This document shows positions 10,852-63,210 of a stretch of DNA of 64,000 bases, piece after piece. The notes below the pieces were generated by a model, which saw only the letters and a program-made list of their open reading frames with translations, was not told the origin of the DNA and ran no database searches. A program made the translations under genes and the position numbers. Origin of the DNA: Prevotella sp. (GTDB lineage Bacteria > Bacteroidota > Bacteroidia > Bacteroidales > Bacteroidaceae); assembly GCA_017554145.1 (NCBI GenBank), contig JAFZIZ010000002.1, positions 1 through 64,000 on the forward strand, read 5' to 3'. Within the stretch, counting starts at the first letter, position 1. Each line of letters starts with the position of its first letter.

Positions 10852-11260
10852 ATGAAACTAAACAGAGCAACAATTGAGGATTTCGAGCCCATTATCGTAT
10901 TCTATGATGATGTGATAGAGCGTACTCCTGACATTAAACTGTATGCCCGATGGCAGAAACGTAAGCACCCTACCCTCGATGGTATCAAAGCCTATATTGA
11001 GGAAGGGAACATGTACACGTATAAAGAGAATGACGTTATTGTTGGAGCAATGGCTGTCACAATGTATCAAGGCGAAGACTATCATGCCATCGAGTGGTCT
11101 CAGCAGGTAGAAGATGACAAAGTGGCTGTGATTCACATCCTTGCGGTGAGTCCTGATGTTCAGGGTAAAGGCATCGGGTTTTGAATACCGTGGCCAGCAG
11201 CATCTCTATGCCGAGAATACAGGTTGGACAGACTTCTATTTCTTTGAGTTTAAGGAGTGA
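10852..11260 (+). pseudogene. GNAT N-acetyltransferase, broken by an internal deletion
   Basis: The first frame (10852-11184) encodes a GNAT N-terminal half up to the acetyl-CoA loop (LAVSPDVQGKGIG), then stops at once. In another frame, directly after the same Gly codon, the sequence reads GFEYRGQQHLYAENTGWTDFYFFEF and a stop at 11258-11260; this is the normal last strand and tail of the same family. The roughly 35-40 residues that usually lie between the CoA loop and the GFEY-type strand are absent. The simplest reading is a single deletion of about 110 bp that also shifted the frame. The promoter is still present. Probably non-functional. Confidence 0.75.
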
Positions 11261-11336: not shown

Positions 11337-12839
11337 ATGCTTCGACTACCGAGAATCACTCGGACTCTTTCCTTCAGACTGAGTCTGACGCTACTCTCAG
11401 CTTTGGCGACGTTGCTGATAGTAGCATTAGGTATTATGTTCTATTTTTCACGTAAAGCAGTGAAGGAAGAGGCATCACTGAAAGCCACACAGACGCTGGA
11501 GGCAACGCAACAGAGAATCGACAATATCCTGTTGAGCGTTGAGCAGTCAGCGGGCAATATCTACTTGAACATCCTCAATCACATTGACCAGCCGGAAAAG
11601 ATGGATACCTACTGCCGTAAGTTCGTAGAGGGTAATCCGTATAGCAACGGATGCGCCATCGCCTTTGAACCTGACTTCTATCAAGACCACCCTAACCTGA
11701 TTGTTTTCTATCGCAAGTCTGGCATCAAGGATGCCGATGGAAAAGAGGTTCTCGTCGAAGCTAAGACGGAGAGCGGTCTTCCCTATTACAAGCAGACATG
11801 GTATATCAGCACCCTCGAAAAACGCGTACCCGACTGGTTGGAACCCCGAGAAGACAACGCTACGAATGGAGAGCCCGTCACCGTCTTTACCTTACCTATT
11901 TATATTAATGAGAAGAAGGCAGGCGTGATGGCTGCCGGCGTACCACTTAATCTGTTGTCGAAAATTGTGGAGGACGCGAAACCATCTCCCAACTCTTTCT
12001 GTGCACTGTTAGGCGAAGACGGCTCCTACATCGTACACCCCGACACCAGCAAACTGAATTACAGGAATGTCTTCTCACTGAAAAGCCCTACGGCAAAAGA
12101 GGCTGCAAAGGCGATGATGGCTGGCGAGACAGGTTATAAGAAGTTCAAGCAGAATGGTGAGAACTACTATGTGTTCTACAAGCCTTTTGAACGCTCCGTC
12201 GCCCCTGGTCGCTCAATGGAGAAGCTGAACTGGAGTATCGGCATCATTTATCCGGAGGACGATATCTTCGGGGACTACAGGCGCCTGCACTATGCAATTA
12301 TCACCATTGCTGCAGTAGGACTGCTGCTGTTGCTGCTGCTCTGTTATACCTTCATCCACCGTCAGCTATTGCCACTTCGCATGCTGTCACTATCGGCACA
12401 GCATATTGCCGAAGGACACTACGACGAGCGTATCCCCGATACGCGTCAGCAAGACGAAGTGGGGCGGTTGCAGAAAGACTTCCAGCACATGCAGCAGGCG
12501 CTGAACCTGCGTGTGGGCGAGATGGAACAGCTGACACAGACCCTGGAGGAGCGAGGCAAGGAGCTGCAGGCGGCTTACGAACTGGCACAGTCGGGCGACC
12601 GTATGAAGACAAACTTCCTCTATAATATGTCGAACCAGATGATATCACCTATCAATGAGATCTGTTCGAGTGTAAAAGAATTCAGAGACCAGATAGGCAA
12701 TATGACGGAAGATACCAACAAAGAACTGGTGGACAACATCCTGACACAGGGTGAGAAAATTACGTCGATGCTCCAACAACTGCTCAATGAGTCGGAAAAG
12801 AAAAAGGATACTACAGAGAATACAGAGTTGGTAATATAA
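11337..12839 (+). CDS. Cache-HAMP sensor with a histidine-less HisKA-like domain (no ATPase domain)
   Basis: 500 residues: TM1 at about 15-37, a large periplasmic Cache/PDC-type domain at about 40-315 (ends TYIVHPD-like and NWSIGIIYPEDDIF motifs), TM2 at about 320-340, HAMP at about 341-393, coiled coil, then a dimerisation-helix region at about 425-490. Where the neighbouring kinase has NVSHQIRTP, this protein has NMSNQMISP: the phospho-acceptor His is Asn433. The protein then ends; there is no HATPase domain. It cannot be an active kinase. The gene is 16 bp upstream of a full paralogous kinase, so a heteromeric partner or signal-input role is inferred. A second such pair lies at 18392-20970. 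Confidence 0.82.
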   Translation: MLRLPRITRTLSFRLSLTLLSALATLLIVALGIMFYFSRKAVKEEASLKATQTLEATQQRIDNILLSVEQSAGNIYLNILNHIDQPEKMDTYCRKFVEGNPYSNGCAIAFEPDFYQDHPNLIVFYRKSGIKDADGKEVLVEAKTESGLPYYKQTWYISTLEKRVPDWLEPREDNATNGEPVTVFTLPIYINEKKAGVMAAGVPLNLLSKIVEDAKPSPNSFCALLGEDGSYIVHPDTSKLNYRNVFSLKSPTAKEAAKAMMAGETGYKKFKQNGENYYVFYKPFERSVAPGRSMEKLNWSIGIIYPEDDIFGDYRRLHYAIITIAAVGLLLLLLLCYTFIHRQLLPLRMLSLSAQHIAEGHYDERIPDTRQQDEVGRLQKDFQHMQQALNLRVGEMEQLTQTLEERGKELQAAYELAQSGDRMKTNFLYNMSNQMISPINEICSSVKEFRDQIGNMTEDTNKELVDNILTQGEKITSMLQQLLNESEKKKDTTENTELVI

Positions 12840-12854
12840 AAGACAGGTACACAG

Positions 12855-14765
12855 ATGCGCAACTTGATGACACATATCCGACAGTCACTGGCACTGAAGC
12901 TCAGCATCGGCATTCTGCTGATGGCGGTGCCTGTGTTCCTCGTGGCGATGGGTGTCCTGTTCGTGGAATCGAGACGTCATATAAAACAGGAGGCGATGGA
13001 TCATGCCAACGCAGTGCTCTCCACCACCATGCAGCACATCAGCCGTTATATGAAGAATGTGGAGACAGCTACCGACATCAACGACTGGGAGGTGACGGCA
13101 AACATGAATTCTGACTCCATACTCACCCTTTCACGCTTCATCGTTGAGATGAACGGTAATCTCGACGGCTGCTCCATCAGTACCGAACCCGATATCTTCC
13201 CCAAATACGGCCGATACTTCTCCGCCTATTCCGTCAGAGAACAGGACACCGTCACGACAGTGGTAGAGGGGGAATATGATTATTTCGACAAGGTATGGTA
13301 CAAGAAACCCAAAACGCTGGGCAAGCCCTGCTGGGTGGTGTACTACGATGAGAGCGACTCGCTGGAGGTGACCATCAACGGTCTGATTGCCTCCTACAGC
13401 AAACCTCTCTACGACAACAACAAACGCTTCGTGGGAGTGATCTCCACCGACCTCTCGCTGAAACACCTCTCTGAGATTATCTCGGCAACAGAGAAGCCCT
13501 ACCCCAACTCCTATTTCGCGATTATCGGCGACGAGGGACGCTACTATCTGCATCCTGACACCACGAAACTCTTCAACAAGACCATCTTCAGCGACTTCAA
13601 TGCCAAGAGCCATACCGACCTCATCACGCTGGGGTATGAGATGACGACTGGCAAGGAGGGAAACATGAACGTGAAGATATACGAAAGATCATGTCTCGTC
13701 TGCTACCAACCCGTACCAGACACAAACTGGAGCCTCGCCCTCATCTGTCCCGACGATGATATCCTGCAGAGCTACAAACGTCTAAGCTATATCGTCTCTG
13801 GAATCATCATCGTAGGTCTGCTGCTGATACTCTTCTTCTCGTTTTTGCTCGTCACTCGTACCATCCGACCGCTGAACAGGCTGGCCGAGAGAGCGCAACG
13901 TATCACTTCCGGAGAATACGACCAGGAAATCTTACCAAGCCCCTCTCAAGATGCCGTAGGACGACTACAGAACAGCTTTGTCACCATGCAGAAATCACTA
14001 AAAGAACACGTCAACGAAGTGCAGCAGATGAACGAGGAAGCCGCACAGCGTAACGAGGAACTGGTGAAAGCCAGTAAGCTCGCCGAGGAAGGCAACAGAC
14101 AGAAAGACATCTTCATCCAGAACGTGTCGCACCAGATACGCACACCAATGAACATCATCATCGGCTTTGCACAGATACTGCACGAGAGCAAGAGCATGAT
14201 GCCGGAAGAGGAGCTGAAGAACGTGACGAACTCGATGTTCTATAATGCGAGGGTTCTCGACCGTATGAATAAAATGCTCATCGACAGTTCAACAAGAGGC
14301 TCCATGCGAGAACTCTATGCAAACAAAAACGACAGGGTGTTCTGCAATGAGGCTGCACAATACGCCATCGAGAAGAACCGTGAGTTGTTCCCGCTGGAGA
14401 TCAAATTCGAGACGTCGTTGCCCGACAATTTCTATATCCATACCAATCGTACGTACCTCACACTAACCATCCAGGAGCTGCTCTTCAACGCCTCCAAGTA
14501 TTCCGACGGACAGAACATCTCTCTGCAACTCTCCAAAACGGAACGGACAGTTTGCTTCATCGTCGAGGATACAGGACCAGGATTCCCAGCAGAGGACAGC
14601 GACCGTCTTTTCGAGCTGTTTACGAAAGTCAACGACCTGTCAGACGGTCTTGGACTTGGTCTCCCGCTATCCAAGCGCCACATCACCAGTCTGAACGGTA
14701 CGCTGGCTATCGACCCGAGTTATCAGAGCGGCTGTCGTATCATCATAGAACTTCCCATCGTTTAA
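12855..14765 (+). CDS. Cache-HAMP sensor histidine kinase
   Basis: 636 residues: TM1 at about 15-38, periplasmic Cache/PDC domain at about 40-300 (GRYYLHPDTTKLF, NWSLALICPDDDI), TM2 at about 315-337, HAMP at about 338-390, coiled coil, HisKA with His426 (NVSHQIRTP) and HATPase_c with Asn545 (QELLFNASKYS), G1 DTGPG (572-576) and G2 GLGLGL (598-603). All catalytic boxes are intact. There is no receiver domain and no response regulator next to it, so the phosphate acceptor is encoded elsewhere. It is colinear with the kinase at 19066: both have exactly 211 residues from the catalytic His to the end. Likely cotranscribed with the dead sensor upstream. Confidence 0.88.
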   Translation: MRNLMTHIRQSLALKLSIGILLMAVPVFLVAMGVLFVESRRHIKQEAMDHANAVLSTTMQHISRYMKNVETATDINDWEVTANMNSDSILTLSRFIVEMNGNLDGCSISTEPDIFPKYGRYFSAYSVREQDTVTTVVEGEYDYFDKVWYKKPKTLGKPCWVVYYDESDSLEVTINGLIASYSKPLYDNNKRFVGVISTDLSLKHLSEIISATEKPYPNSYFAIIGDEGRYYLHPDTTKLFNKTIFSDFNAKSHTDLITLGYEMTTGKEGNMNVKIYERSCLVCYQPVPDTNWSLALICPDDDILQSYKRLSYIVSGIIIVGLLLILFFSFLLVTRTIRPLNRLAERAQRITSGEYDQEILPSPSQDAVGRLQNSFVTMQKSLKEHVNEVQQMNEEAAQRNEELVKASKLAEEGNRQKDIFIQNVSHQIRTPMNIIIGFAQILHESKSMMPEEELKNVTNSMFYNARVLDRMNKMLIDSSTRGSMRELYANKNDRVFCNEAAQYAIEKNRELFPLEIKFETSLPDNFYIHTNRTYLTLTIQELLFNASKYSDGQNISLQLSKTERTVCFIVEDTGPGFPAEDSDRLFELFTKVNDLSDGLGLGLPLSKRHITSLNGTLAIDPSYQSGCRIIIELPIV

Positions 14766-14769
14766 GCAC

Positions 14770-14820
14770 ATTTTTGCGCAACGCGTTGCGTACAAATTCT
14801 TAGAAGTGTTGCGCAAAAAT
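14770..14820. promoter_or_regulatory. Nested palindromes: candidate LacI-family operator
   Basis: ATTTTTGCGCAAC (14770-14782) and GTTGCGCAAAAAT (14808-14820) form a perfect 13-bp inverted repeat with a 25-base gap. Inside the left arm starts a separate perfect palindrome, CGCAACGCGTTGCG (14777-14790), with the central CG typical of LacI/GalR operators. TTGCGCAA, itself palindromic, occurs at both ends. It lies between the kinase stop and the promoter of the LacI-type gene, so autoregulation through one or two operators is likely. Confidence 0.65.
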
Positions 14821-14835
14821 ATGAGTAAAACAGCG

Positions 14836-14843
14836 TAATTTTG
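14836..14843 (+). promoter_or_regulatory. -7 box for the LacI-type regulator
   Basis: TAATTTTG lies one base before the ATG at 14845, so that ATG is unlikely to be the true start; the in-frame ATG at 14875 fits a leader of about 25 nt. Confidence 0.6.
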
Positions 14844-14874
14844 TATGGCAAATCTAATCAATATCGATGGAAGG

Positions 14875-15882
14875 ATGAAAAGAATCTCACAGCGTGACAT
14901 CGCAAAGATATTGGGAATCAACGTCTCTACCGTCTCTCGTGCACTGAGAGGCGTGGAAGGTGTGGGACCTGAACTGAAAGAGAAGATTGCGCAACTGGCT
15001 AAGGAACAAGGATACACCCCTAACCCGTTTGCCCTGAGTCTTCGCTACGACACTACCCGTACGATAGGTGTCATAGTGCCTAATGTGTCATTCAGTCATT
15101 TTGCGCATATCGTGAAATACCTTGAAATGGAGGCCAAGAAGGCGGGATATATGTGTATCATCACCGACTCTGACGACAAATACGAGAACGAGGTAGCTAT
15201 TGTCGAGCACATGATGAGCATGCATGTGGACGGCATCATTGTCTGTCTTGCACAGGACACGACCGACTACAGTCATCTGTTCAGAGTGAAAGAGCGTAGC
15301 GTTCCCATTGTCATCTTCGATCGTATAGCCGACGTCAATCTCTCAACAGTGGTTATCAACGATACAGATTCTGTACGCCAAGTGACCCACTACCTGATTG
15401 ACTGTGGCGCCAAGAGAATTGCCTTCTTAGGTGGTTCAAACCGTATGAAACAAACTGCAGACCGCAAACACGGTTATCTGGAGGCTCTCCGTGAGCGTAG
15501 GATTCCCATCCGGAAAGAATTGGTGAAGTGTCATAATACCAGTTTCAACTCAGGATTGACAGATATGATGGACCTGCTCGACTTGCCAGAACCACCTGAC
15601 GCTATCATCGCAGCACACGGTCTGCTTGCCAATGCTGCCTTCAAAGCCATTAACAGCAGAGGTCTGCGCATCCCTGAGGACATCGCTTTGGTAGGATATA
15701 TGAGCGACTGGGTATCGGACATCATGACACCCAGAATCACCTTCGTAAAACAGAACCTGCGCGATATCGGTGGTAAAGCGTTCAAGTTGCTGAACGACCA
15801 GATCAATGGTGACTTCAGCGTCAAGCATATCGTGCTGAAGGCACGACTGGAACTTCGTGAGACAACAAAAAAAATTACCTAA
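14875..15882 (+). CDS. LacI-family transcriptional regulator
   Basis: 335 residues from the ATG at 14875; an upstream in-frame ATG at 14845 adds ten residues but abuts the -7 box. The helix-turn-helix RISQRDIAKILGINVSTVSR is followed by the hinge (YTPNPFALSLR) and a periplasmic-binding-protein-like ligand domain (IGVIVPNVSFSHFAHIV, VDGIIVC, IPEDIALVGYMSDW). It lies 20 bp before the GH9 gene and after a strong palindromic site, so it probably controls itself and the downstream glycan genes in response to a sugar. The effector cannot be deduced. Confidence 0.9.
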   Translation: MKRISQRDIAKILGINVSTVSRALRGVEGVGPELKEKIAQLAKEQGYTPNPFALSLRYDTTRTIGVIVPNVSFSHFAHIVKYLEMEAKKAGYMCIITDSDDKYENEVAIVEHMMSMHVDGIIVCLAQDTTDYSHLFRVKERSVPIVIFDRIADVNLSTVVINDTDSVRQVTHYLIDCGAKRIAFLGGSNRMKQTADRKHGYLEALRERRIPIRKELVKCHNTSFNSGLTDMMDLLDLPEPPDAIIAAHGLLANAAFKAINSRGLRIPEDIALVGYMSDWVSDIMTPRITFVKQNLRDIGGKAFKLLNDQINGDFSVKHIVLKARLELRETTKKIT

Positions 15883-15901
15883 CACAAAAAAGACTATCAT
15901 A

Positions 15902-18379
15902 ATGACTAAGAAAAAGAAACTATTACTCCTGATGCTCCTGCTGACGACAACCGTCAGCAAGGCTCAGGACTTACAACTGAACGACCTCGAATATTTCGAG
16001 CGACAGGGCGTCAACGTGCTCGTGTTCAGTAACAGCTTTAATGGCGGCTTCAATGACGAGAAGAATTCGGGTATTGAGATTATCCATCATGGCGTACGTA
16101 CTGTGCAGGGCGGGGCTGTCCGACTGAACAACACCCCTGAGCAATGGGATCTCGTACCGAAGATGACAAGTAGAAAGGTGAATCGTGAGAACAGTAGTAT
16201 TGAGGTGGCTTTACGCTACGACGACTATGATTTCGACAGTCGCATCGTGGTCACTGCCAAAGGACAGGCAGTAGAGATTGCCGTCTATCTCGATAAGCCC
16301 GTTCCTGAGAAACTGGCTGGCGAGGCCGGCTTCAATCTGGAGTTCTTGCCCTCACAATACTGGTTGAAGACTTTCATGATGGACGGACGCTTAGGTCGTC
16401 TGCCCCGTTACGCCACCAGTCAGACGATTACCCGTCCTAATAGTGAGAAGCCCCGTCAGTTCAAAGGTTTCAAAACCTACGATGACAGAGGTACCAACCG
16501 TTTCATCGACCCACTACCTATCGAGACAGGTCATCAGATCATCATGGCGACAGACAATCCTGAACGGATGATCAAGATCAGCAGTGACGATGCAGAACTA
16601 AAACTCTTCGACGGACGTATGCTGGCACAGAACGGTTGGTTCGTGTTGCGTAGCGTACTGCCCAAAGGAAAAACGGGCAAGGTCATCACATGGATGGTAG
16701 AGCCTCACGCCATTCCTGGTTGGATTCGTGAACCGAATATCGGGTTCTCACAAGTAGGCTATATCCCTGAACAACCCAAGGTGGCTGTCATCGAACTCGA
16801 CAAGAAAGACCAGCCACTGGCTACTGCCACGTTGATGCGCATCAATCCTGATGGTACGACAGAACAGGCTTATCAGGGCAACATCAGCACATGGGGTCCT
16901 TATTTTAAATATAATTATGTAAAGTTTGACTTCAGTTCCGTCAAACAACCTGGTGTCTATTACATCCAGTATGGCAAGACGAAGACCAATGATTTCCTCA
17001 TTGACGAGCATGTCTATGACAAAATCACGGATGCAACGACGGATGTCTGGGTTCCTATCCACATGAACCACATGTATGTGACGGAAGGGTATCGCACTTG
17101 GCACGGAGAACCTTTCAAAGAGGGTTATCTACAAGCACCAGAGAGTGACCACTTCGACCTGCATAGTCAGGGAAAGACTACCGATACAAAATACAAACCG
17201 CTGGAACTCATTCCAGGTCTGAATGTTGGCGGATTCTTCGATGCAGGTGACTTTGACATTGAGACGAGTTCAAATATCAATGTGGTACAGAACCTTATCC
17301 GCGCTTGGGAATTGTTTAAGCCTCAGCGCGACGAGACTTTCGTGAGTCAGGAACAGCGCTATGTCGAGCTGCACCGCCCTGACGGTGTACCCGATATCCT
17401 ACAGTTTATCGAGCATGGAACGCTGAACCTCGTGGCACAAGCAGAACAGATCGGCCACATGTCACAGACACTCTCAAACTCCGTTCTCGACAACTATCAT
17501 CACCTCGGCGATGCTGCTTCGATTACAGACGGACTGCACTACGACCCCAGTCTGAAACCCTATGAGGTAAGTGCTGATGGTAAGCGTAGTGGTACTCCCG
17601 ACGATATGTGGGCATTCACTACCCGTAATCCACGTCTCGACCTACAGGCAGCAGGTATCTTCACTTCGGCAGCCCGCGTACTTAGAGGCTATAATGACGA
17701 CCTCGCCGACAGGGCACAGAAGCAGGCTGACCGCTTACGTAAGGAAGCTGAGCAGTTACTCAAACGAAGCCCACATCGTCGTAATGCACAGGCTGATGCC
17801 GACTTTGACTGGCTCACAGGCACTGGTGACGGTAACTATCGGAATGTGGCACGTAACCTACAAACGATGCTCGACTCCATCCCGATGAAGGATGATGTCT
17901 ATAAACAGCAATTACGCCCTGCTGTCCAGCAATATGCCGAATATATCAAGAGCTTCGATACACAGAATCCTTATGGTGTACCCATCGGACTGGGGAACTG
18001 GGCTGGTGTTAATGCCGTCCTGAACTTCGGCATCACTGTCAACTACGCCCATATCTACTTCCCCGATATCGTTGGCAAGGATGAGATCTATCGCGTAGCC
18101 AACTGGCTCTACGGCTGTCATCCATATCATAATTATTCGTTTGTAGCTGTTGTGGGTGCTGCCCGTCCGAAACAGGTGTTTTACGGCAACAACCGCGCTG
18201 ACTTCTCGTTCATCCCTGGTAATGTGGCTCCGGGGTTGCTGTTCCGCAAGCCCGATCATTTCGAGAACTTCGACGACTGGCCTTTCCTCTGGGGACAAAA
18301 CGAAGGCACCATCGCAGGTAACACACAGTATATCATTTTCGGCTCTGCCTTTAAGAATATCATCAACAACGAAAAATAA
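15902..18379 (+). CDS. Glycoside hydrolase family 9 (endoglucanase-type) with N-terminal extra domain
   Basis: 825 residues from the ATG at 15902; upstream in-frame codons overlap the regulator gene and precede the signal peptide (MTKKKKLLLLMLLLTTTVSKA), so they are excluded. Residues about 23-275 form an uncharacterised beta-rich region, about 278-375 the Ig-like CelD-N domain (IGFSQVGYIPEQPKVAVI), and about 380-825 the GH9 (alpha/alpha)6 barrel. Catalytic residues are visible: DAGD at 447-450 and Glu801 in WGQNEGT. HRPDGVPDILQF also fits. Family members hydrolyse beta-1,4-glucans or related glycans by inversion; the product is probably periplasmic or surface located. It is flanked by the LacI regulator and a sensor pair, suggesting induction by its own glycan. 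Confidence 0.9.
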   Translation: MTKKKKLLLLMLLLTTTVSKAQDLQLNDLEYFERQGVNVLVFSNSFNGGFNDEKNSGIEIIHHGVRTVQGGAVRLNNTPEQWDLVPKMTSRKVNRENSSIEVALRYDDYDFDSRIVVTAKGQAVEIAVYLDKPVPEKLAGEAGFNLEFLPSQYWLKTFMMDGRLGRLPRYATSQTITRPNSEKPRQFKGFKTYDDRGTNRFIDPLPIETGHQIIMATDNPERMIKISSDDAELKLFDGRMLAQNGWFVLRSVLPKGKTGKVITWMVEPHAIPGWIREPNIGFSQVGYIPEQPKVAVIELDKKDQPLATATLMRINPDGTTEQAYQGNISTWGPYFKYNYVKFDFSSVKQPGVYYIQYGKTKTNDFLIDEHVYDKITDATTDVWVPIHMNHMYVTEGYRTWHGEPFKEGYLQAPESDHFDLHSQGKTTDTKYKPLELIPGLNVGGFFDAGDFDIETSSNINVVQNLIRAWELFKPQRDETFVSQEQRYVELHRPDGVPDILQFIEHGTLNLVAQAEQIGHMSQTLSNSVLDNYHHLGDAASITDGLHYDPSLKPYEVSADGKRSGTPDDMWAFTTRNPRLDLQAAGIFTSAARVLRGYNDDLADRAQKQADRLRKEAEQLLKRSPHRRNAQADADFDWLTGTGDGNYRNVARNLQTMLDSIPMKDDVYKQQLRPAVQQYAEYIKSFDTQNPYGVPIGLGNWAGVNAVLNFGITVNYAHIYFPDIVGKDEIYRVANWLYGCHPYHNYSFVAVVGAARPKQVFYGNNRADFSFIPGNVAPGLLFRKPDHFENFDDWPFLWGQNEGTIAGNTQYIIFGSAFKNIINNEK

Positions 18380-18391
18380 ATAACGCCCACA

Positions 18392-19063
18392 ATGGTTCTA
18401 CTCTCATATATCCGCCGTTCCCTGTCTACCCAGATGGCTCTCTGGGTAGCAGGGGTCGCTGCGGTCATTTTCGCAGGAATCTATATCTGTACAGAGTATT
18501 ACCATTTGCCCTTCTTCACACTGCCCGTTGCCATCATCAGCTTCATCGTACTGGTGGCTATCTGCTGGTATGTGATTGCCCATCACCTGCATCCGCTGAG
18601 TCTGTTGGCAACCTCTGCCCAGCGTATCACAGACGGACATCTCGAAGAGGCAATACCAGACAGTGGGCAACAAGACGAGATTGGACAGTTGCAAAACAGT
18701 ATTGCTACCATGCAACGCTCGCTGGCTGACTACCTTTCGGAGATGAATCAGAAACAGGAGACGCTCAGCCTACAGAACGCAGAACTCCAAGAAGCCTACA
18801 AACAGGCGCAGGAAGCCGACGGGGTGAAAGCGAAATTCCTGAGTAATATGACAGATCAGATGGCTCAAGCCGTCAATACCATCTCTTCGCTGACGAATAC
18901 GCTCTGCGACAACTACCAAAATCTCTCCAAGACGGAGATGGTGAAGATTCAGGTACAGATGTTGACAGAGACGGATATCGTTACAAGACTACTGAACCAG
19001 ATGTTGGATGTATCCCAGCAGGATGAGTCGCAACGTACACACTATAACCATGATATCCTCTGA
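18392..19063 (+). CDS. Short HAMP protein with histidine-less HisKA-like region, no sensor domain
   Basis: 223 residues. Two hydrophobic segments (about 15-34 and 42-63) lie close together, so the periplasmic Cache domain found in its relatives is missing. HAMP covers about 64-115, a coiled coil about 115-145, and the dimerisation helices about 146-215. The acceptor position reads NMTDQMAQA: Asp155 replaces His, and the Arg-Thr-Pro that follows in true kinases is lost too. No HATPase domain. It is related to the 11337 product but shortened at the sensor end. It starts 12 bp after GH9 and ends 2 bp before the full kinase at 19066, so it is almost surely made together with that kinase. Confidence 0.82.
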   Translation: MVLLSYIRRSLSTQMALWVAGVAAVIFAGIYICTEYYHLPFFTLPVAIISFIVLVAICWYVIAHHLHPLSLLATSAQRITDGHLEEAIPDSGQQDEIGQLQNSIATMQRSLADYLSEMNQKQETLSLQNAELQEAYKQAQEADGVKAKFLSNMTDQMAQAVNTISSLTNTLCDNYQNLSKTEMVKIQVQMLTETDIVTRLLNQMLDVSQQDESQRTHYNHDIL

Positions 19064-19065
19064 CC

Positions 19066-20970
19066 ATGAAGCGACTCATCAACTATATCAAACAACACCT
19101 CACGCTGCGGTTGGGTCTGCTGATTCTAGTCATCATCACTATGGTCTTTGCGGTGTCTTTCAGTATCTCATTCTACCATACAAGACAATACGTACAGAAA
19201 AACGCCATCAGCCATGCTACCACGATATTAGATAGTACGATGCTTCGCGTAACCAACATCCTGGACAAGACAGAGAAGATGACCTCTGACATGGAGAATA
19301 GGATACGTCATCACGTACATCCTGACTCCCTGTTAGCATATACCCGTCAGATGCTGGAAGAACATCCAGATGTACTCGGCTTCACCATTTCCATGAAACC
19401 CGGATATTTTCCAGAGCATGGACGTTTCTTCTCTGCCTATTCACTCAGACAGGGTGATTCTATCACTTCTGTGGTGGAGGATATCGATTACAGTGAACTG
19501 GTATGGTATAAGAACTCGATGGAACAGCGGAAAGCATGCTGGTTGGAGCCTTATATAGATAATGTAGAGGGAGAATTGACTTCCCACGAATATAATTTCT
19601 CGTATACCAAACCATTGTTTGATGAGAATGAAGAACCCGTCGGTGTTTTGTGTACTGATTTGGGACTGAAATGGTTGTCACAGACAGTGACAGCTGTTCA
19701 GCCCTACCCCCACTCTTCAGCTATTGTATTGGGACATGACGGTAGTTATATCGTACATCCTGATACTACTAAACTGGTTAAGGCATCCATCTTCTCTGAC
19801 CCCGATCCACAGGCAAGACAGGCTGTCGTACCCCTCGGAGAAGCAATGTTGGCAGGTTATACTGGTTTCCAAGAACTGGTTGTTGACGGGCAGGATGCCT
19901 ATGTGTTCTATCAACCGCTGAAACGGACGGGAGGCAGTATCGCAATCGTATGTCCTGCCAGCGATATCTTCAACGAATATAATAATCTTATCTATGCAGT
20001 ATGGATTATCAGTGTCGTAGGTCTGTTACTGTTGCTTTTCTTCTGCTATCAGACGATTCGAAGAGCTGTAGTACCTATCAACCAACTCGCCCGACAGGCA
20101 CAACGTATTGCCGCCGGACATTTTGACGAGCCACTACCCCATAGCAACCGACTGGATACCATCGGACAACTGCAGAATAGTTTTATCCTCATGCAGCAGT
20201 CATTGGCAAAAAACGTCAGCGAGATACAGCAAATCAATGCCGAAATGGAGCAGCATAACCAAGAACTTATTCATGCCAACCAACTGGTTCATGAGGCAGA
20301 CAAGCGGAAAACGGCATTTATGCAGGATATGGCTCACCAGATACGTACACCACTGAATATCATCAACGGTTTCACACAGGTATTCTCGGAAATCTTCAAT
20401 AACATTCCTGAGGATGAATTGATGGACATCACTTCTCGTATGAAATCCAGTGCCAAGGCCATCAGTCATATCACCCGCATGTTGATTGCTTCATCCAATA
20501 GTGACAGTCAGCATACCACGGAGCGTACGACGTTCCCCTGTAACGCACTCTGTCAGGAAGCCGTATCAGCAATCACACTCCGTCATCCTGATACTGTCAG
20601 TATTGCTGTTGAGACCAGTGTAAATGATACGTTTACCATATATACAGACCGCCAGGCATTACTGTCGATTCTCGAAGAATTGCTCGACAACGCCAATAAG
20701 TTCACTACCGAGGGAACGATTACGCTTGGATGTCGACTGGCGGATGCTGACACAATTCTATTTACTGTCAGCGATACAGGACCTGGCATTGCCCTTTCAG
20801 ACCATGACCGTATCTTTACCCAGTTCACCAAACTTGATTCATTTACAGAGGGAATAGGACTTGGTCTCTTCCTGAGTCGCCATACGGTCCATCTGCTGGG
20901 TGGCGATCTCACGCTGGATAACACCTATCACCCTGGAGCCCGTTTTTGTATCACATTACCCACACAATAA
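19066..20970 (+). CDS. Cache-HAMP sensor histidine kinase, paralogue of the 12855 kinase
   Basis: 634 residues: TM1 at about 12-36, periplasmic Cache/PDC domain at about 38-300 (GSYIVHPDTTKLV), TM2 at about 310-333, HAMP at about 334-388, HisKA with His424 (DMAHQIRTP), HATPase_c with LDNANKF N-box, SDTGPG G1 and GIGLGL G2. It is complete and matches the 12855 kinase in domain order and spacing. It follows a histidine-less HAMP protein by 2 bp and precedes an outer-membrane receptor gene by 20 bp, which ties it to GH9 and the barrels. No receiver domain or adjacent response regulator. Confidence 0.88.
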   Translation: MKRLINYIKQHLTLRLGLLILVIITMVFAVSFSISFYHTRQYVQKNAISHATTILDSTMLRVTNILDKTEKMTSDMENRIRHHVHPDSLLAYTRQMLEEHPDVLGFTISMKPGYFPEHGRFFSAYSLRQGDSITSVVEDIDYSELVWYKNSMEQRKACWLEPYIDNVEGELTSHEYNFSYTKPLFDENEEPVGVLCTDLGLKWLSQTVTAVQPYPHSSAIVLGHDGSYIVHPDTTKLVKASIFSDPDPQARQAVVPLGEAMLAGYTGFQELVVDGQDAYVFYQPLKRTGGSIAIVCPASDIFNEYNNLIYAVWIISVVGLLLLLFFCYQTIRRAVVPINQLARQAQRIAAGHFDEPLPHSNRLDTIGQLQNSFILMQQSLAKNVSEIQQINAEMEQHNQELIHANQLVHEADKRKTAFMQDMAHQIRTPLNIINGFTQVFSEIFNNIPEDELMDITSRMKSSAKAISHITRMLIASSNSDSQHTTERTTFPCNALCQEAVSAITLRHPDTVSIAVETSVNDTFTIYTDRQALLSILEELLDNANKFTTEGTITLGCRLADADTILFTVSDTGPGIALSDHDRIFTQFTKLDSFTEGIGLGLFLSRHTVHLLGGDLTLDNTYHPGARFCITLPTQ

Positions 20971-20990: not shown

Positions 20991-23912
20991 ATGACACGAA
21001 AAACTACTCTTTTATTCGTATTCTGGATACTCGCCCTCTCTGGTATCTACGCACAACCAGAGCCCGAAGACAGGAAACTGACGATACGCGGACAACTGCT
21101 GGATGCCGACTTGAAAGAGCCGATGATACAGGCTACTATCCAGTTGTTTACTGCTACAGACAGTATCTTTGTCGGAGGTACGGTGAGTGACAATAGAGGA
21201 AATTTTTATGTCGAGGCACCTCGTAGCGGTACTTACCGACTCAGAATCTCGTCGGTAGGTTTCCAAACTATCGATCGCGAGGTAACATTACGACGCAACG
21301 AGAATCAGGACTTAGGCAACCTGTTGATGGAATCAGAGAGTTTTATGCTCCAAGAAGCTGTTGTCACAGGACGTGCCGCACAGGTGATTATCAGAAAAGA
21401 CACGATTGTCTATAACCCTGAGGCTTTCCGCACGCCAGAAGGTTCCCCCATTGAAGAACTCATCAAACGCATTCCTGGTGCAGAAGTTGATGAGGATGGT
21501 AATATCACTATCAATGGTAAAGAGGTGAAAAAAATCCTGCTTGATGGTAAGGAGTTTATGTTGGGCGACGTAGAGACAGCCCTGAAGAATATTCCTGTGA
21601 ATATCATCCAAAACCTGAAGTTCTATGACCAACAGAGCGACCAAGCCCGTATCACAGGTATTGAGGACGGTGAGAAAGAGACGGTGCTCGATTTCTCTAT
21701 CAAGAAAGGAATGAATCACGGATTTATGACCAATCTTGACTTGGCGGGCGGTACAAAACATCGCTATGCCTCACGTGGTATGGGGAGTATCTTCACAGAT
21801 CAGGTACGTTTCGTTCTCTTGGGTAACTTCAATAACAAAGAGGAGAATGCGGGTTGGTGGAACCGCCGAGGACTGAATGCCCGAAAGATGCTGGGCACCA
21901 ACCTAAACTACGACGACGGAGATAAACTGAAGGTAGATGCCAGCATCCGATGGAACCACCGCGACGGTGACAACGTAACACAAACAGCCGTCCAAAACTT
22001 CTATAGTGAGACGGCACGTACCTTCTCAAACAGTTCGGCATCCAACGACACCCGAAGCAACAACTGGTGGGGAAATATCCGCGTAGAGTGGAAACCTGAC
22101 TCCCTGACGAATGTCTTGTTGCGTGCCAATGGCAGTTATGGCACCAACGACGGTACGACGAACTCTATCTCTGCGACGTTCAATGATGACCCCTATCTCT
22201 ATGTATCCGATCCATTGGAACCGTATGACCCATCGAGTCCTTTGTCTCCTTATTTCATCAATCACAATCTAAACACAAGCCTAACTTATGGAGAGAACAA
22301 AAATGCTTGGGCGATGCTTCAGTTCTATCGCCGTCTGAATCCCAGAGGAAGGAATATCGTAGTCCGCTTAGAGGCCAACGTAGGAAAGAATCAGAACGAG
22401 AATGTATCGAATAACGAGGTATATCTCTTCAAGGTGAAGAATCAGGCAGGACAGGATTCTACCTATTATACAGCCCGATATAATACGACACCTTCGGATA
22501 ACAGCGGTTACGTGCTCAGCACCACCTATAGTGAACCACTCTGGAAGGGTGCTCACCTGCAGTTCAACTACGAGTTACGCTATAGTCAGAACAAGAGTGA
22601 CCGACTGACCTACGACTTCAGTCACTTGCCAGAGAATATCTTTTCTGGTATCGTACCTGCATACCGCGACTGGGATCCATGGCTCTCCACAGTCTATGAC
22701 GAGATGGATGCCCACCTTGACAGGAACCTGAGTCGCTATTCCGAATACAAGAACTATACACATAACCTACGTCTTACTCTGCGTCACCGCGTGGAGAAAT
22801 ACGATTTCAATGTCGGTTTCCTCGTACAGCCTCAGCACTCCAACTTCATTCAAGACTATCGAGGTGTCTATGTGGATACCATCCGTAATGTCACTAATCT
22901 GACACCGACATTCGACTTCCACTATAAGTTCAATGACCAGAGTAACTTCTGGTTACATTATCGCGGTGATACGCGTCAACCAGAAATGACACAGTTACTT
23001 GACATCACCGATGATTCCAATCCTCTCTATATTACAAAAGGTAACCCAGGGTTGAAACCGCAGTTCACCAATTCGCTCAATGCGTATTTCAACACTTATA
23101 TCGTTCGTTACAAGCGCAGCATCGTAGCGTATTTGAACTACCGTCATATCCGTAACAGTATTTCTAATATGGTGCGCTATGATGCCAATACAGGTGGAAG
23201 TACATCACAACCAGAGAATATCAACGGTAACTGGAACATGAATGGTGGATTCACCTTCAATACTGCCCTTGATTCGACAGCCCACTGGAATGTGGGTACA
23301 GATACCCGTATCCGTTATAATAATTTCGTGAGTTATGTAGCACAGCAACAGGCAGATGCAGCGAAGAACACGACGCGTACCACAAATCTCAACCAACGAC
23401 TGACGGCAGGTTACCGTAACGACTGGTTAGAAATAACGCTCGACGGTCAGTTGAACTACCAGCACTCACGTAACGAGTTGCAACCCAATGCCAACCTCGA
23501 TACATGGCAGTTTAACTACGGTGGGCAGTTTCTCGTACGACTGCCTTATGACTTCGAGGTCAGTATGAACATGCACGAACGCAGCAGACGAGGCTATAAC
23601 GATGCATCAATGAATACGAACGAGTTTATCTGGAACGGTCAAATATCCAAACCTTTCCTCAAAAACAAGTCACTCATTGTGGCTCTTAACTTCTACGACC
23701 TGCTCAGACAACAGAGCAATTATGAGCGTTGGGTCAATGCCACAGGGCGTACCGATACTCAGTATAATAGTGTCAATTCCTACGTAATGCTCCACGTACG
23801 CTTCCGTCTAAATATGTTTGGCGGTAAGATTGACACAGAAGGTCGTTACGACAAGAAATGGGGCAATCGTGACAATAATAACAGAAATAATAACAATCGC
23901 CGCAGATGGTAA
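20991..23912 (+). CDS. Large outer-membrane beta-barrel protein, TonB-receptor-like
   Basis: 973 residues: signal peptide (KTTLLFVFWILALSGIYA), carboxypeptidase-like domain at about 30-115 (LTIRGQLLDADLKEPMIQA, LRISSVGFQTIDREV), plug-like domain at about 120-240 (EELIKRIPGAEVDEDGN, KKILLDGKEFMLGDVETA), then a long barrel ending in an Asn/Arg-rich tail (about 955-973). The family differs from SusC and there is no SusD gene beside it. It may take up or sense a product of GH9; that rests on context only. It is 20 bp after the kinase and 8 bp before the next receptor gene. Confidence 0.83.
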   Translation: MTRKTTLLFVFWILALSGIYAQPEPEDRKLTIRGQLLDADLKEPMIQATIQLFTATDSIFVGGTVSDNRGNFYVEAPRSGTYRLRISSVGFQTIDREVTLRRNENQDLGNLLMESESFMLQEAVVTGRAAQVIIRKDTIVYNPEAFRTPEGSPIEELIKRIPGAEVDEDGNITINGKEVKKILLDGKEFMLGDVETALKNIPVNIIQNLKFYDQQSDQARITGIEDGEKETVLDFSIKKGMNHGFMTNLDLAGGTKHRYASRGMGSIFTDQVRFVLLGNFNNKEENAGWWNRRGLNARKMLGTNLNYDDGDKLKVDASIRWNHRDGDNVTQTAVQNFYSETARTFSNSSASNDTRSNNWWGNIRVEWKPDSLTNVLLRANGSYGTNDGTTNSISATFNDDPYLYVSDPLEPYDPSSPLSPYFINHNLNTSLTYGENKNAWAMLQFYRRLNPRGRNIVVRLEANVGKNQNENVSNNEVYLFKVKNQAGQDSTYYTARYNTTPSDNSGYVLSTTYSEPLWKGAHLQFNYELRYSQNKSDRLTYDFSHLPENIFSGIVPAYRDWDPWLSTVYDEMDAHLDRNLSRYSEYKNYTHNLRLTLRHRVEKYDFNVGFLVQPQHSNFIQDYRGVYVDTIRNVTNLTPTFDFHYKFNDQSNFWLHYRGDTRQPEMTQLLDITDDSNPLYITKGNPGLKPQFTNSLNAYFNTYIVRYKRSIVAYLNYRHIRNSISNMVRYDANTGGSTSQPENINGNWNMNGGFTFNTALDSTAHWNVGTDTRIRYNNFVSYVAQQQADAAKNTTRTTNLNQRLTAGYRNDWLEITLDGQLNYQHSRNELQPNANLDTWQFNYGGQFLVRLPYDFEVSMNMHERSRRGYNDASMNTNEFIWNGQISKPFLKNKSLIVALNFYDLLRQQSNYERWVNATGRTDTQYNSVNSYVMLHVRFRLNMFGGKIDTEGRYDKKWGNRDNNNRNNNNRRRW

Positions 23913-61512: not shown

Positions 61513-63210
61513 ATGAACTTAACCATTATTCTCATACTGGCAGGACTCCTACTATTGGTGGCACTCTTTCTGATTGGAAGACTGCTCTATCAGCGTAGTG
61601 TCCGTATCCGTAACAGGTTGCAGATGAGTTATGTGTTCACGAATATCACCCACGAATTGTTGACGCCACTGACCATTATCGCTGCTTCCGTGGAGAGACT
61701 GCGCAATCATGACCTGGAAAACAAACGGGACTATGACCTCATGGAACTGAATATCGCGCGTGTCGTCAGACTGTTGCAGCAGATTCTGGAAACCAGTAAG
61801 TCACAGTCGGGAGAACTGAAACTACGCGTAAGTAATGGTGATGTGATGGAGTATATCCGGGAGACAGCCCTTTGCATAGAACCCCTGATGTCGAAGAAAG
61901 GACTGGAATTCACGGTACACTGTCATCCCGAGAGTATGATGGGATGGATAGATACCGACAAGCTCGATAAGATTATCTTCAACCTCCTGTCAAATGCCGT
62001 GAAATATACTGGCGAGCACGGAAAAGTCGTCCTCGAAGTGTCCACGAGTCCACGTTACGACCGTGTCATTATCCGTGTCAGTGATAATGGTAGTGGTATT
62101 TCGCCAGAAAATATGAAACAGCTCTTCACGCGTTTCCACGATGGAGAATACCGTAAGAACCAGACTTTTGGAACGGGTATTGGTCTTTCCCTGACCCGTG
62201 ACCTTGTGTATCTGCATGGTGGAACGATACAGTGTCAGAGTTATGAAGGACAGGGTACGACCTTTATCGTAGAACTGCCCATCAAGAAGAACGCTTTCTC
62301 TGCCTCGCAGATTGATGAGAGTCATCAAATACAGATAAATCGTCCACACAGTAATATCATTGATCTGGCCACCTCGTTGTCAGGTCTGGAGGTAGAGGAT
62401 CTTCCAGAGGAAGTGATGCCTGAGGATGAGGATGCCTACACCCTGCTTGTGGTAGAGGATAATGTAGAACTGTTGATGCTCATGAAACAGTTGTTACAAC
62501 CACATTACCATGTGTTAACCGCCTCCAATGGAAAAGAAGCCTTGGATGCTGTCCATGCCCATGATGTCGATCTCATCGTGTCGGATGTGATGATGCCTGA
62601 GATGGATGGTTATGAGTTGACGAAGGTATTAAAGCAGAGTCCCGATTATAGTTATCTGCCTATCATCCTGTTGACGGCCAAGAATCAGGAGGAAGACAAG
62701 GAAGAGTCGCTGTTGATTGGTGCCGACGACCACATCAGTAAACCCTTCCGTATGAATGACCTGCGGTTGAGAATTGATAATATCATTGCCAACCGCCGTC
62801 GTATCCGACAAATTTTCCAGGAGCGTTCGACGGAAGAGAATATTGAGGAAATCAAGGCGACGGCCTCGACAGAGGATAATGAGTTTATACAACGTGCTAT
62901 CCAGTGTCTGGAGGAACACTTAGATGACAGTGACTACGACCGTGATGCCTTTGCCCGTGATATGGGAGCCAGTGCCTCGACGTTGTATAACAAACTTCGG
63001 GCTATGACGGGTATGAATGTCTCGGGTTTCATCCGTAACTACCGTATTAAAGTGGCATGTCGCATGGCGAAAGAGCAACACGGTCTGCGTGTCAGTGACA
63101 TCGCCTATCGTGTTGGTTTTAAGGATCCTAAGTATTTCGCTACCTCATTCAAAAAAGAAACGGGCATGCAACCCTCAGAGTATTTCGAACAGGTTCGTGC
63201 AAAAGGATGA
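61513..63210 (+). CDS. Hybrid two-component regulator: histidine kinase, receiver and AraC-type DNA-binding domain, no large sensor
   Basis: 565 residues. One TM helix at about 3-23, then HisKA with His47 (NITHELLTP), HATPase_c (FNLLSNAVKYTGE, VSDNGSGIS, GTGIGLSL), a receiver with phospho-acceptor Asp358 (IVSDVMMPEMDG) and Lys in ISKPF, and an AraC HTH at about 457-565 (FARDMGASASTLYNKLRAM, VSDIAYRVGFKDPKYFATSF). The order is that of Bacteroidetes hybrid two-component systems, but the periplasmic Reg_prop/Y_Y_Y sensor of those proteins is missing; only a short N-terminus precedes the helix. It stands alone, with no glycan genes beside it. Signal and targets unknown. Confidence 0.9.
   Translation: MNLTIILILAGLLLLVALFLIGRLLYQRSVRIRNRLQMSYVFTNITHELLTPLTIIAASVERLRNHDLENKRDYDLMELNIARVVRLLQQILETSKSQSGELKLRVSNGDVMEYIRETALCIEPLMSKKGLEFTVHCHPESMMGWIDTDKLDKIIFNLLSNAVKYTGEHGKVVLEVSTSPRYDRVIIRVSDNGSGISPENMKQLFTRFHDGEYRKNQTFGTGIGLSLTRDLVYLHGGTIQCQSYEGQGTTFIVELPIKKNAFSASQIDESHQIQINRPHSNIIDLATSLSGLEVEDLPEEVMPEDEDAYTLLVVEDNVELLMLMKQLLQPHYHVLTASNGKEALDAVHAHDVDLIVSDVMMPEMDGYELTKVLKQSPDYSYLPIILLTAKNQEEDKEESLLIGADDHISKPFRMNDLRLRIDNIIANRRRIRQIFQERSTEENIEEIKATASTEDNEFIQRAIQCLEEHLDDSDYDRDAFARDMGASASTLYNKLRAMTGMNVSGFIRNYRIKVACRMAKEQHGLRVSDIAYRVGFKDPKYFATSFKKETGMQPSEYFEQVRAKG

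Follow-up and report, generated by a model that had tools for sequence, protein, structure and literature searches.

The first 64,000 nucleotides (forward strand) of contig JAFZIZ010000002.1 of a Prevotella sp. genome (NCBI GenBank assembly GCA_017554145.1), called the window below, contain two tandem couples of genes for proteins related to sensor histidine kinases (Table 1). In each couple a gene for a catalytically empty protein, here called upstream partner 1 or 2, precedes a gene for a protein with a phosphoacceptor histidine and an ATPase domain, called downstream member 1 or 2. The two proteins of each such pair make up an old sensor module that is inherited as a unit, and many genomes contain several copies of it. 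With a probability of roughly 0.4, the pair would be a mixed-dimer sensor that serves chiefly to dephosphorylate, under ligand control, a distant response regulator, probably a shared one, and it may thus be a signal-controlled off-switch instead of a kinase.

An old two-protein sensor module

A sequence-only reading of the window had described the four open reading frames, with Asn433 and Asp155 at the phosphoacceptor position of the first genes and His in the second genes, and these positions and domains are borne out. In partner 1, dCache_1, a PDC model and HAMP are above the Pfam cut-off, with HisKA below threshold (E 0.031) and HATPase absent; in partner 2, HAMP is above the cut-off and HisKA again below threshold (5.9e-5), without Cache and without HATPase. 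In both downstream proteins all four domains, dCache_1, HAMP, HisKA and HATPase_c, exceed the curated Pfam cut-off. The same reading was also right that a Cache domain is present in one dead partner only, that both downstream proteins extend over 211 residues counted from His to the C-terminus, and that there is no receiver domain in the four proteins (Pfam) and no adjacent response regulator. The spacing of 2 bp that it gave for pair 2 is correct, whereas the 16 bp given for pair 1 should be 15 bp. Its description of the second-gene kinases as intact is doubtful, since it overlooked that Gln, not Glu or Asp, directly follows His. In a fold search with partner 1, the 50 best listed matches are Cache-type or chemoreceptor structures, from which no ligand can be named.

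The same arrangement recurs in related genomes beyond chance, and is not a local peculiarity of the window. When partner 2 was searched against 200 genomes of the same genus (its own included), matches with E <= 1e-3 were obtained in 121, general kinase matches included; the 60 genomes with a best E < 1e-20 (hand count) are called pair-bearing. From 100 stretches chosen among these matches, two of them from the window's own genome, together with the window, 98 tandem pairs and four single matches were collected. A second sample was made up of the 80 top-ranking loci when GTDB genomes were scanned with the downstream protein as query, and gave 81 pairs, 59 of them new and none with an upstream His or ATPase domain. 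The dead partner lies directly upstream in 79 of these 80 loci, and in the exception, L265, the gene begins 137 bases from the contig start. All but two of the record titles in this sample are Prevotella or Prevotellaceae, many being metagenome-assembled genomes with rumen-type names, and the isolates among them are Xylanibacter ruminicola D31d and Prevotella sp. ne3005 and P6B1. A third sample of 62 loci, picked by upstream alignment or remaining from the partner 2 search, added 57 new pairs out of 59. In total, four Prevotella-like genera (g1, g217, g222, g224) yielded 214 non-redundant pairs with this architecture. Residue-level scoring covered 212 of the pairs, L056 and L340 being excluded because of gaps. 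Two complete pairs follow each other in L220 (6632 onward) and in L222 (6476 onward). True orphans are rare, the downstream gene of L202 described below being one; in L088 the partner stands beside an N-terminal remnant of its neighbour only, and in L337 the neighbour is frameshifted. Apparent singles were found at contig edges, with L041 cut by the contig end and L103 and L341 located near contig ends.

When 393 genomes from across the order were sampled, most strong matches outside the family ended at profile positions 401-413, after HAMP. Four longer frames extend to 434-460, and matches of lower significance (E above 1e-40) extend as far as 486. Among 38 non-family Cache-HAMP frames, 21 have a SpoIIE motif, four a kinase motif, and 13 are unclassified. 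The full-length upstream-type frames among the listed rows of a 301-genome family-wide sample come from g1, g217, g222 and g224. A full-length frame of 623 aa is also listed in g212.

The two members of the pairs have been inherited together. A single branch (support 0.89) divides the 212 upstream from the 212 downstream HAMP-DHp cores, with none of the 424 sequences misplaced; in the set of 98 pairs the same split is found after removal of the H-box (support 0.999), and a tree built from only the first 60 columns misplaces 3 of 196 sequences. The mirror-tree correlation is r = 0.81, compared with maxima over 500 shuffles of 0.15 (all pairs) and 0.21 (ATPase-bearing pairs). The intergenic gap in 212 pairs is 0 bp or less in 169 (-4 in 82), 1-50 bp in 42 and more than 50 bp in one, with the longest start codon chosen mechanically and some overlaps consequently overstated. 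The median ratio of non-synonymous to synonymous substitution rates (dN/dS) is 0.089 for upstream genes (maximum 0.37) and 0.097 for downstream genes in 59 comparisons, which are not independent and are those that passed filters out of the 60 closest computed from 137 candidates. The fixed gene order, the close or overlapping genes, the equal purifying selection and the single tree split all indicate an old module and not decay.

Catalytically empty upstream partners

The ATPase domain is absent from the upstream member in all 214 pairs, and 209 of 212 upstream members are without the phosphoacceptor His. The residues at that position are D (96), N (85), E (8), G (6), A, S, T and H (3 each), Q (2) and V, K and I (1 each), so that N or D accounts for 181. 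Within a set of 98 upstream members the positions of the catalytic face (0, +3, +4, +7, +8) are variable and packing positions are conserved (-9 K, -6 F, -5 L, -2 M, +2 M, +5 P, +9 I). The C-terminal two-helix hairpin is retained in AlphaFold models of partner 1 (mean predicted local distance difference test score, pLDDT, 83.9) and partner 2 (82.9). The upstream members have the build of pseudo-histidine kinases, in which the DHp fold is retained and the catalytic residues are gone.

The missing catalytic residues and the shortened partner 2 could also be expected if the upstream genes were decaying kinases. This is hardly credible, in view of a dN/dS around 0.09 that is like that of the downstream gene, the same losses throughout all four genera and one undivided split in the tree, which together rule out recent decay. 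The earlier idea that the dead proteins are genuine components of the pair is upheld in this respect, His being left in only three of them, the ATPase domain in none, and the pairs co-occurring in other genomes.

A possible exchange of roles was seen at L139:7456-10712 and L348:1087-4468, where the ATPase-less upstream protein has His and the ATPase-bearing downstream protein has Gln at that position. As a general feature such a swap was rejected, two loci being too few.

The residues retained by the downstream members

The position directly after His (His+1) is Gln in 171 of the 173 ATPase-bearing downstream members. The other kinases of the same genome have Glu there in 10 of 10 cases found by pattern, a count that omits five HisKA-bearing frames that did not fit the pattern, and also in the window kinase near 61624; E or D is present in 9 of 9 other kinases of neighbouring loci, the family member L265 being excluded. 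In the best structural match, 4jas, which we take to be a form of HK853, Glu is opposite Gln427 and Thr opposite Thr430 of downstream member 1. Over all 212 scored downstream members, Thr at His+4 is retained in 206, His in 194, and an acid at His+1 in 14 (13 Glu, 1 Asp).

The consequences of replacing this acid are known from mutants, which are described here, as is all cited work, after excerpts of the sources. CrdS variants E372A, D, G and Q are kinase-negative and phosphatase-competent, and HK853 E261A, HK4262 E464A and HK1190 E214A are like them; NtrB E140A and E140Q have kinase-negative phenotypes (PMC3510030). Phosphatase activity is lost in CrdS N375A and largely preserved in CrdS H371A (CrdA~P half-life 2.6 min vs 53.5 without CrdS), whereas PleC H610A has lost both activities (PMC3510030). 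For EnvZ and NtrB, DHp by itself is sufficient for phosphatase activity, which is greatly raised by the ATPase domain (PMC3510030). The acid acts as general base, and ADP stimulates phosphatase activity (PMC7005713).

Two groups of downstream members have lost other parts of the kinase. Seventeen complete proteins stop directly past DHp, and all of them keep His and Thr, with E (12), Q (2), D, R or K (1 each) at His+1; L056 and L268 merely appear ATPase-less, as their stretches stop there. A 157-leaf tree implies at least four losses of the ATPase domain if regain is excluded, namely in the L044/L046/L051 group by L043, in L081 by L048, in L045 by L047, and in the large HE group. The 424-leaf core tree is less resolved and places the 17 in one group of weak support (0.59) with the ATPase-bearing L043, L047 and L048. 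In the other group, ten loci of g217 (L203, L204, L321, L323, L325-L328, L330, L331), Leu or Ile replaces His and the QIRTPLN motif is kept, again with Thr in all of them. Eight of the ten have the ATPase domain, which are all those with a complete stretch, and the ten together with L332 (Arg) form a group of 11 (support 0.87).

Due to the Gln at His+1, the ATPase-less members and the Leu/Ile members, it is doubtful that the downstream protein is an ordinary live kinase. The order of retention, Thr before His before acid, matches the needs of a phosphatase, and falls short of proof because the ATP-binding N, G1, F and G2 motif residues are invariant in an alignment of 47 sequences that includes both window proteins.

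It can also be envisaged that the downstream protein is a true kinase which uses Gln or another residue and is tuned by its dead partner in a mixed dimer, the tuning being what the sequence-only reading had proposed. Such a role, which we regard as possible though questionable, would explain the frequent retention of His and the invariant ATPase motifs, and it has a precedent in FasB/FasC, a mixed dimer with one proposed pseudokinase (PMC12675982). It is less easily reconciled with a Gln that is family-specific among the kinases compared, with the abolition of kinase activity by the same residue change in CrdS and NtrB (PMC3510030), and with the persistence of His and Thr in the 17 ATPase-less members and of QIRTPLN in the ten members without His.

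Alternatively, the downstream protein could be a phosphotransfer or sink module that is phosphorylated in trans or by back-transfer from a regulator, with Gln preventing self-phosphorylation only in those proteins that themselves contain an ATPase domain. The replacement of Gln in most ATPase-less members, as though an acid were useful again, agrees with this role. The Leu/Ile members could not be phosphorylated at this position and yet have low dN/dS (0.06 and 0.04 for L203/L204), an argument that is qualified by values of 0.37 and 0.35 for L325/L328 at very low dS. Moreover, in 13 loci inspected, the ATPase-less pairs have no linked second kinase gene that could serve such a module, and a separate ATPase gene was not seen among the downstream open reading frames. 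A phosphotransfer or sink function appears unlikely.

Search for the response regulator

A receiver protein is encoded within four genes on either side in only 5 of 157 pairs, and in none of them adjacent, with some stretches holding fewer genes; the five proteins have 1304, 1284, 250, 246 and 286 aa. The genome of the window gives 12 receiver matches, and 20 HisKA matches that include upstream partner 2 and the downstream members. A 117-aa receiver protein, whose gene follows one for a Glu-bearing kinase of the TPR type and a transporter-like gene, was considered as the shared regulator. Matches to it with E <= 1e-36 are present in 54 of the 60 pair-bearing genomes and in 26 of the 140 without pairs (hand count), and those to a control receiver (E < 1e-70) in 45 of 60 and 21 of 140. 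With a similar bias in the control, the association is largely a clade effect and this candidate is not relied on.

Another receiver protein, of 122 aa, is encoded at L305:3641-4009 (G000:C37) and is 95-100% identical in 66 of the 200 same-genus genomes, while the approximately 2.4 kb of DNA spanning its gene are 72-80% identical in the seven genomes compared. This indicates strong constraint at the protein level on an uncharacterised single-domain regulator.

A possible mixed-dimer phosphatase

A mechanism can be proposed in which the upstream chain, built of HAMP, a DHp hairpin without catalytic residues and, except in partner 2, a Cache input, would pack against its downstream neighbour and form one of the two chains of the helix bundle, and the sensors would set the conformation of HAMP and DHp. 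The downstream chain, which in most cases still has its ATPase domain, would offer the retained RTPLN surface of DHp, including the phosphatase Thr, with Gln barring autophosphorylation, and its DHp would dephosphorylate a regulator encoded elsewhere. That regulator would probably be common to several pairs and phosphorylated by other kinases. A phosphatase output is proposed because RTPLN and its Thr are kept and Gln stands in place of the acid for autophosphorylation.

HAMP and DHp domains dimerise in a parallel, in-register manner, and covariation between paired chains is therefore expected at equal positions. In the in-register band (+-4 positions) it amounts to 0.135, compared to 0.001 +- 0.032 for pair shuffles (maximum of 60, 0.096). 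A mixed HAMP/helix-bundle dimer is plausible from the homologous in-register cores, the co-inheritance, the conserved packing residues and this weak covariation. Two separate homodimers, with the dead protein as an independent sensor or a regulator decoy, would be compatible with the weak covariation signal and with the fact that Cache-HAMP proteins of the same sensor family function with a SpoIIE output and without a DHp partner. The fixed order and overlap of the genes, their co-inheritance and the preservation of a DHp hairpin in the dead protein are difficult to understand in that case, and separate homodimers are quite improbable.

Several observations weigh against a mixed-dimer phosphatase. 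The best far-offset covariation band (0.146) exceeds the in-register one, offset 0 ranks 8 among 201, and the covariation is graded as no more than suggestive for these reasons; furthermore, the offset-0 peak fell from 0.284 to 0.201 in the larger set. L202 has a downstream gene without a partner, located behind a porin-like gene. His has been kept in the large majority of downstream members, and the invariance of the ATPase motifs suits a kinase and an ATP-stimulated phosphatase equally well. The six downstream members without Thr at +4 are also all without His, which implies that some pairs can have neither activity. Finally, the co-occurrence of the 117-aa candidate regulator with the pairs was nearly equalled by that of the control.

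A wider conclusion could tentatively be drawn, namely that a large family of sensor 'kinases' of Prevotella-like bacteria has abandoned kinase activity, and that many two-gene, two-input, ligand-gated phosphatase units, each pairing a catalytically empty chain with a kinase-negative one, separately brake a single shared regulator. The pattern of losses, in which the acid is gone nearly everywhere, the ATPase domain in one group and His in another while Thr stays, might then be a record of the conversion.

Comparison with known systems

Sensor kinases are usually viewed as homodimers that balance kinase and phosphatase activities, and couples of a dead and a live kinase are, to our knowledge, known mainly as single cases. 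In the present family the dead partner is a fixed component, and the 'live' partner bears the natural counterpart of a published change that switches the kinase off and leaves the phosphatase on. In kind, the family is a variant of heteromeric sensor-kinase control; no description of it was found among the titles and abstract openings listed in searches of the open-licence literature. The more than 200 natural pairs are a resource for studying mixed-dimer gating of DHp and the evolution of phosphatase sensors from kinases, and many records of pair-bearing bacteria derive from the rumen.

The FasBCA system of Streptococcus pyogenes is similar in having two adjacent kinase-like genes, with one partner proposed to be a pseudokinase, and a two-hybrid analysis reported a FasB/FasC heterodimer and no homodimers (PMC12675982). 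Adjacent, co-inherited kinase-like genes of the FasBC type are found here as well, but without a cognate regulator in the operon. In Fas the phosphoacceptor His is on the proposed pseudokinase and the functional ATPase domain on the other partner, with the regulator gene as part of the operon, whereas in the pairs described here one partner is without both, the other is without the acid, there is no linked regulator, and many genomes have several pairs.

In Caulobacter, the pseudo-histidine kinase DivL modulates CckA, another HisKA kinase (PMC9491836). Unlike the upstream partners, the solved fragment of DivL (4q20) still aligns over the ATPase part of the window kinase. DivL is not known as a tandem partner that shares its sensor, and RetS/GacS is a single unlinked pair. 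The latter system of Pseudomonas is alike in that a kinase is controlled by hetero-oligomerisation with another (PMC12675982, PMC9491836), and RetS and GacS can each homodimerise too (PMC12675982). In Corynebacterium, a variant of ChrS that is truncated in the ATPase domain modulates the paralogous kinase HrrS; it differs in being a laboratory mutant and not a fixed family, and a two-hybrid analysis detected no interaction of the truncated form (PMC9491836). CrdS E372Q, HK853 E261A and NtrB E140Q share with the downstream members a changed residue after His and a kept phosphatase Thr/Asn (PMC3510030); these mutants were engineered, whereas here the state is natural and conserved.

The Cache-HAMP-SpoIIE phosphatases of Bacteroidales, two of which are present in the window's genome (Pfam), have the same sensor family, but their output is SpoIIE/PP2C with HATPase_c_2 and not DHp. 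At L138:7413-13227 (G000:C37), two Cache-HAMP-SpoIIE-HATPase_c_2 proteins are encoded around an NMT1/THI5-like binding protein, and the sensor half of the second clusters in a sampled tree with the upstream partners and not with the downstream members.

Genomic neighbourhood

The coordinates of the two pairs and of the genes between and behind them are given in Table 1. Only the type of pair 2 belongs to a conserved locus with a LacI regulator, a GH9-like protein and an outer-membrane protein. Genes 83-87% identical to the GH9-like one immediately precede the pair in L044, L049, L054, L056, L057, L061 and L064. It had been called a GH9 enzyme; CelD_N is the only domain found at E <= 1, as it is in the L054 homologue, so it is called 'GH9-like' here. 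The suggestion that a local duplication placed the two pairs around a glycanase gene had to be dropped, since the midpoint root of the tree separates the two downstream members and pair 1 belongs to a different clade.

Table 1 Features of the two sensor pairs and their neighbours in the window
Feature	Position	Strand	Basis
Upstream partner 1, 500 aa: dCache_1-HAMP-coiled coil-DHp hairpin	11337..12839	+	Open reading frame, Pfam, AlphaFold
Asn433 codon, phospho-His position of partner 1	12633..12635	+	Alignment
Downstream member 1, 636 aa: dCache_1-HAMP-HisKA-HATPase_c	12855..14765	+	Open reading frame, Pfam
His426-Gln427 of downstream member 1, Gln replacing the kinase acid	14130..14135	+	Alignment, including a His-Glu kinase of known structure
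HATPase_c of downstream member 1, residues 533-635	14451..14759	+	Pfam
LacI-family regulator	14845..15882	+	Homologues (E <= 1e-145) in pair-2-type loci L049, L056, L057, L089
GH9-like protein (CelD_N)	15857..18379	+	Pfam; homologous genes at pair-2-type loci
Upstream partner 2, 223 aa: HAMP, coiled coil, DHp hairpin; N-terminal membrane helices (by eye)	18392..19063	+	Open reading frame, Pfam, AlphaFold
Asp155 codon, phospho-His position of partner 2	18854..18856	+	Alignment
Downstream member 2, 634 aa: dCache_1-HAMP-HisKA-HATPase_c	19066..20970	+	Open reading frame, Pfam
His424-Gln425 of downstream member 2	20335..20340	+	Alignment
HATPase_c of downstream member 2, residues 528-633	20647..20964	+	Pfam
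Outer-membrane beta-barrel-type protein	20991..23912	+	Close homologues in L044, L049, L057, L061, L064, L108

Among same-strand neighbours within 120 bp, the upstream ones (64 of 76 scanned) include CelD_N (8), PDC sensor (7), NMT1 (6), GH43 (4) and RNB (4) matches, and the downstream ones (47 of 63 scanned) GH9 (5) and CelD_N (4); OMP_b-brl_3 was found in 3 of these 47, the proteins not being individually assigned. In the window, positions 10852-11184, upstream of pair 1, hold an open reading frame for a 110-aa GNAT acetyltransferase with a partial match to the domain model. A gene for a free-standing PDC/Cache protein (about 330 aa) directly precedes the pair at L099:6318-7310 and L136:9929-10918, and His of the downstream member is replaced by Arg or Pro; some units may accordingly have a third sensor.

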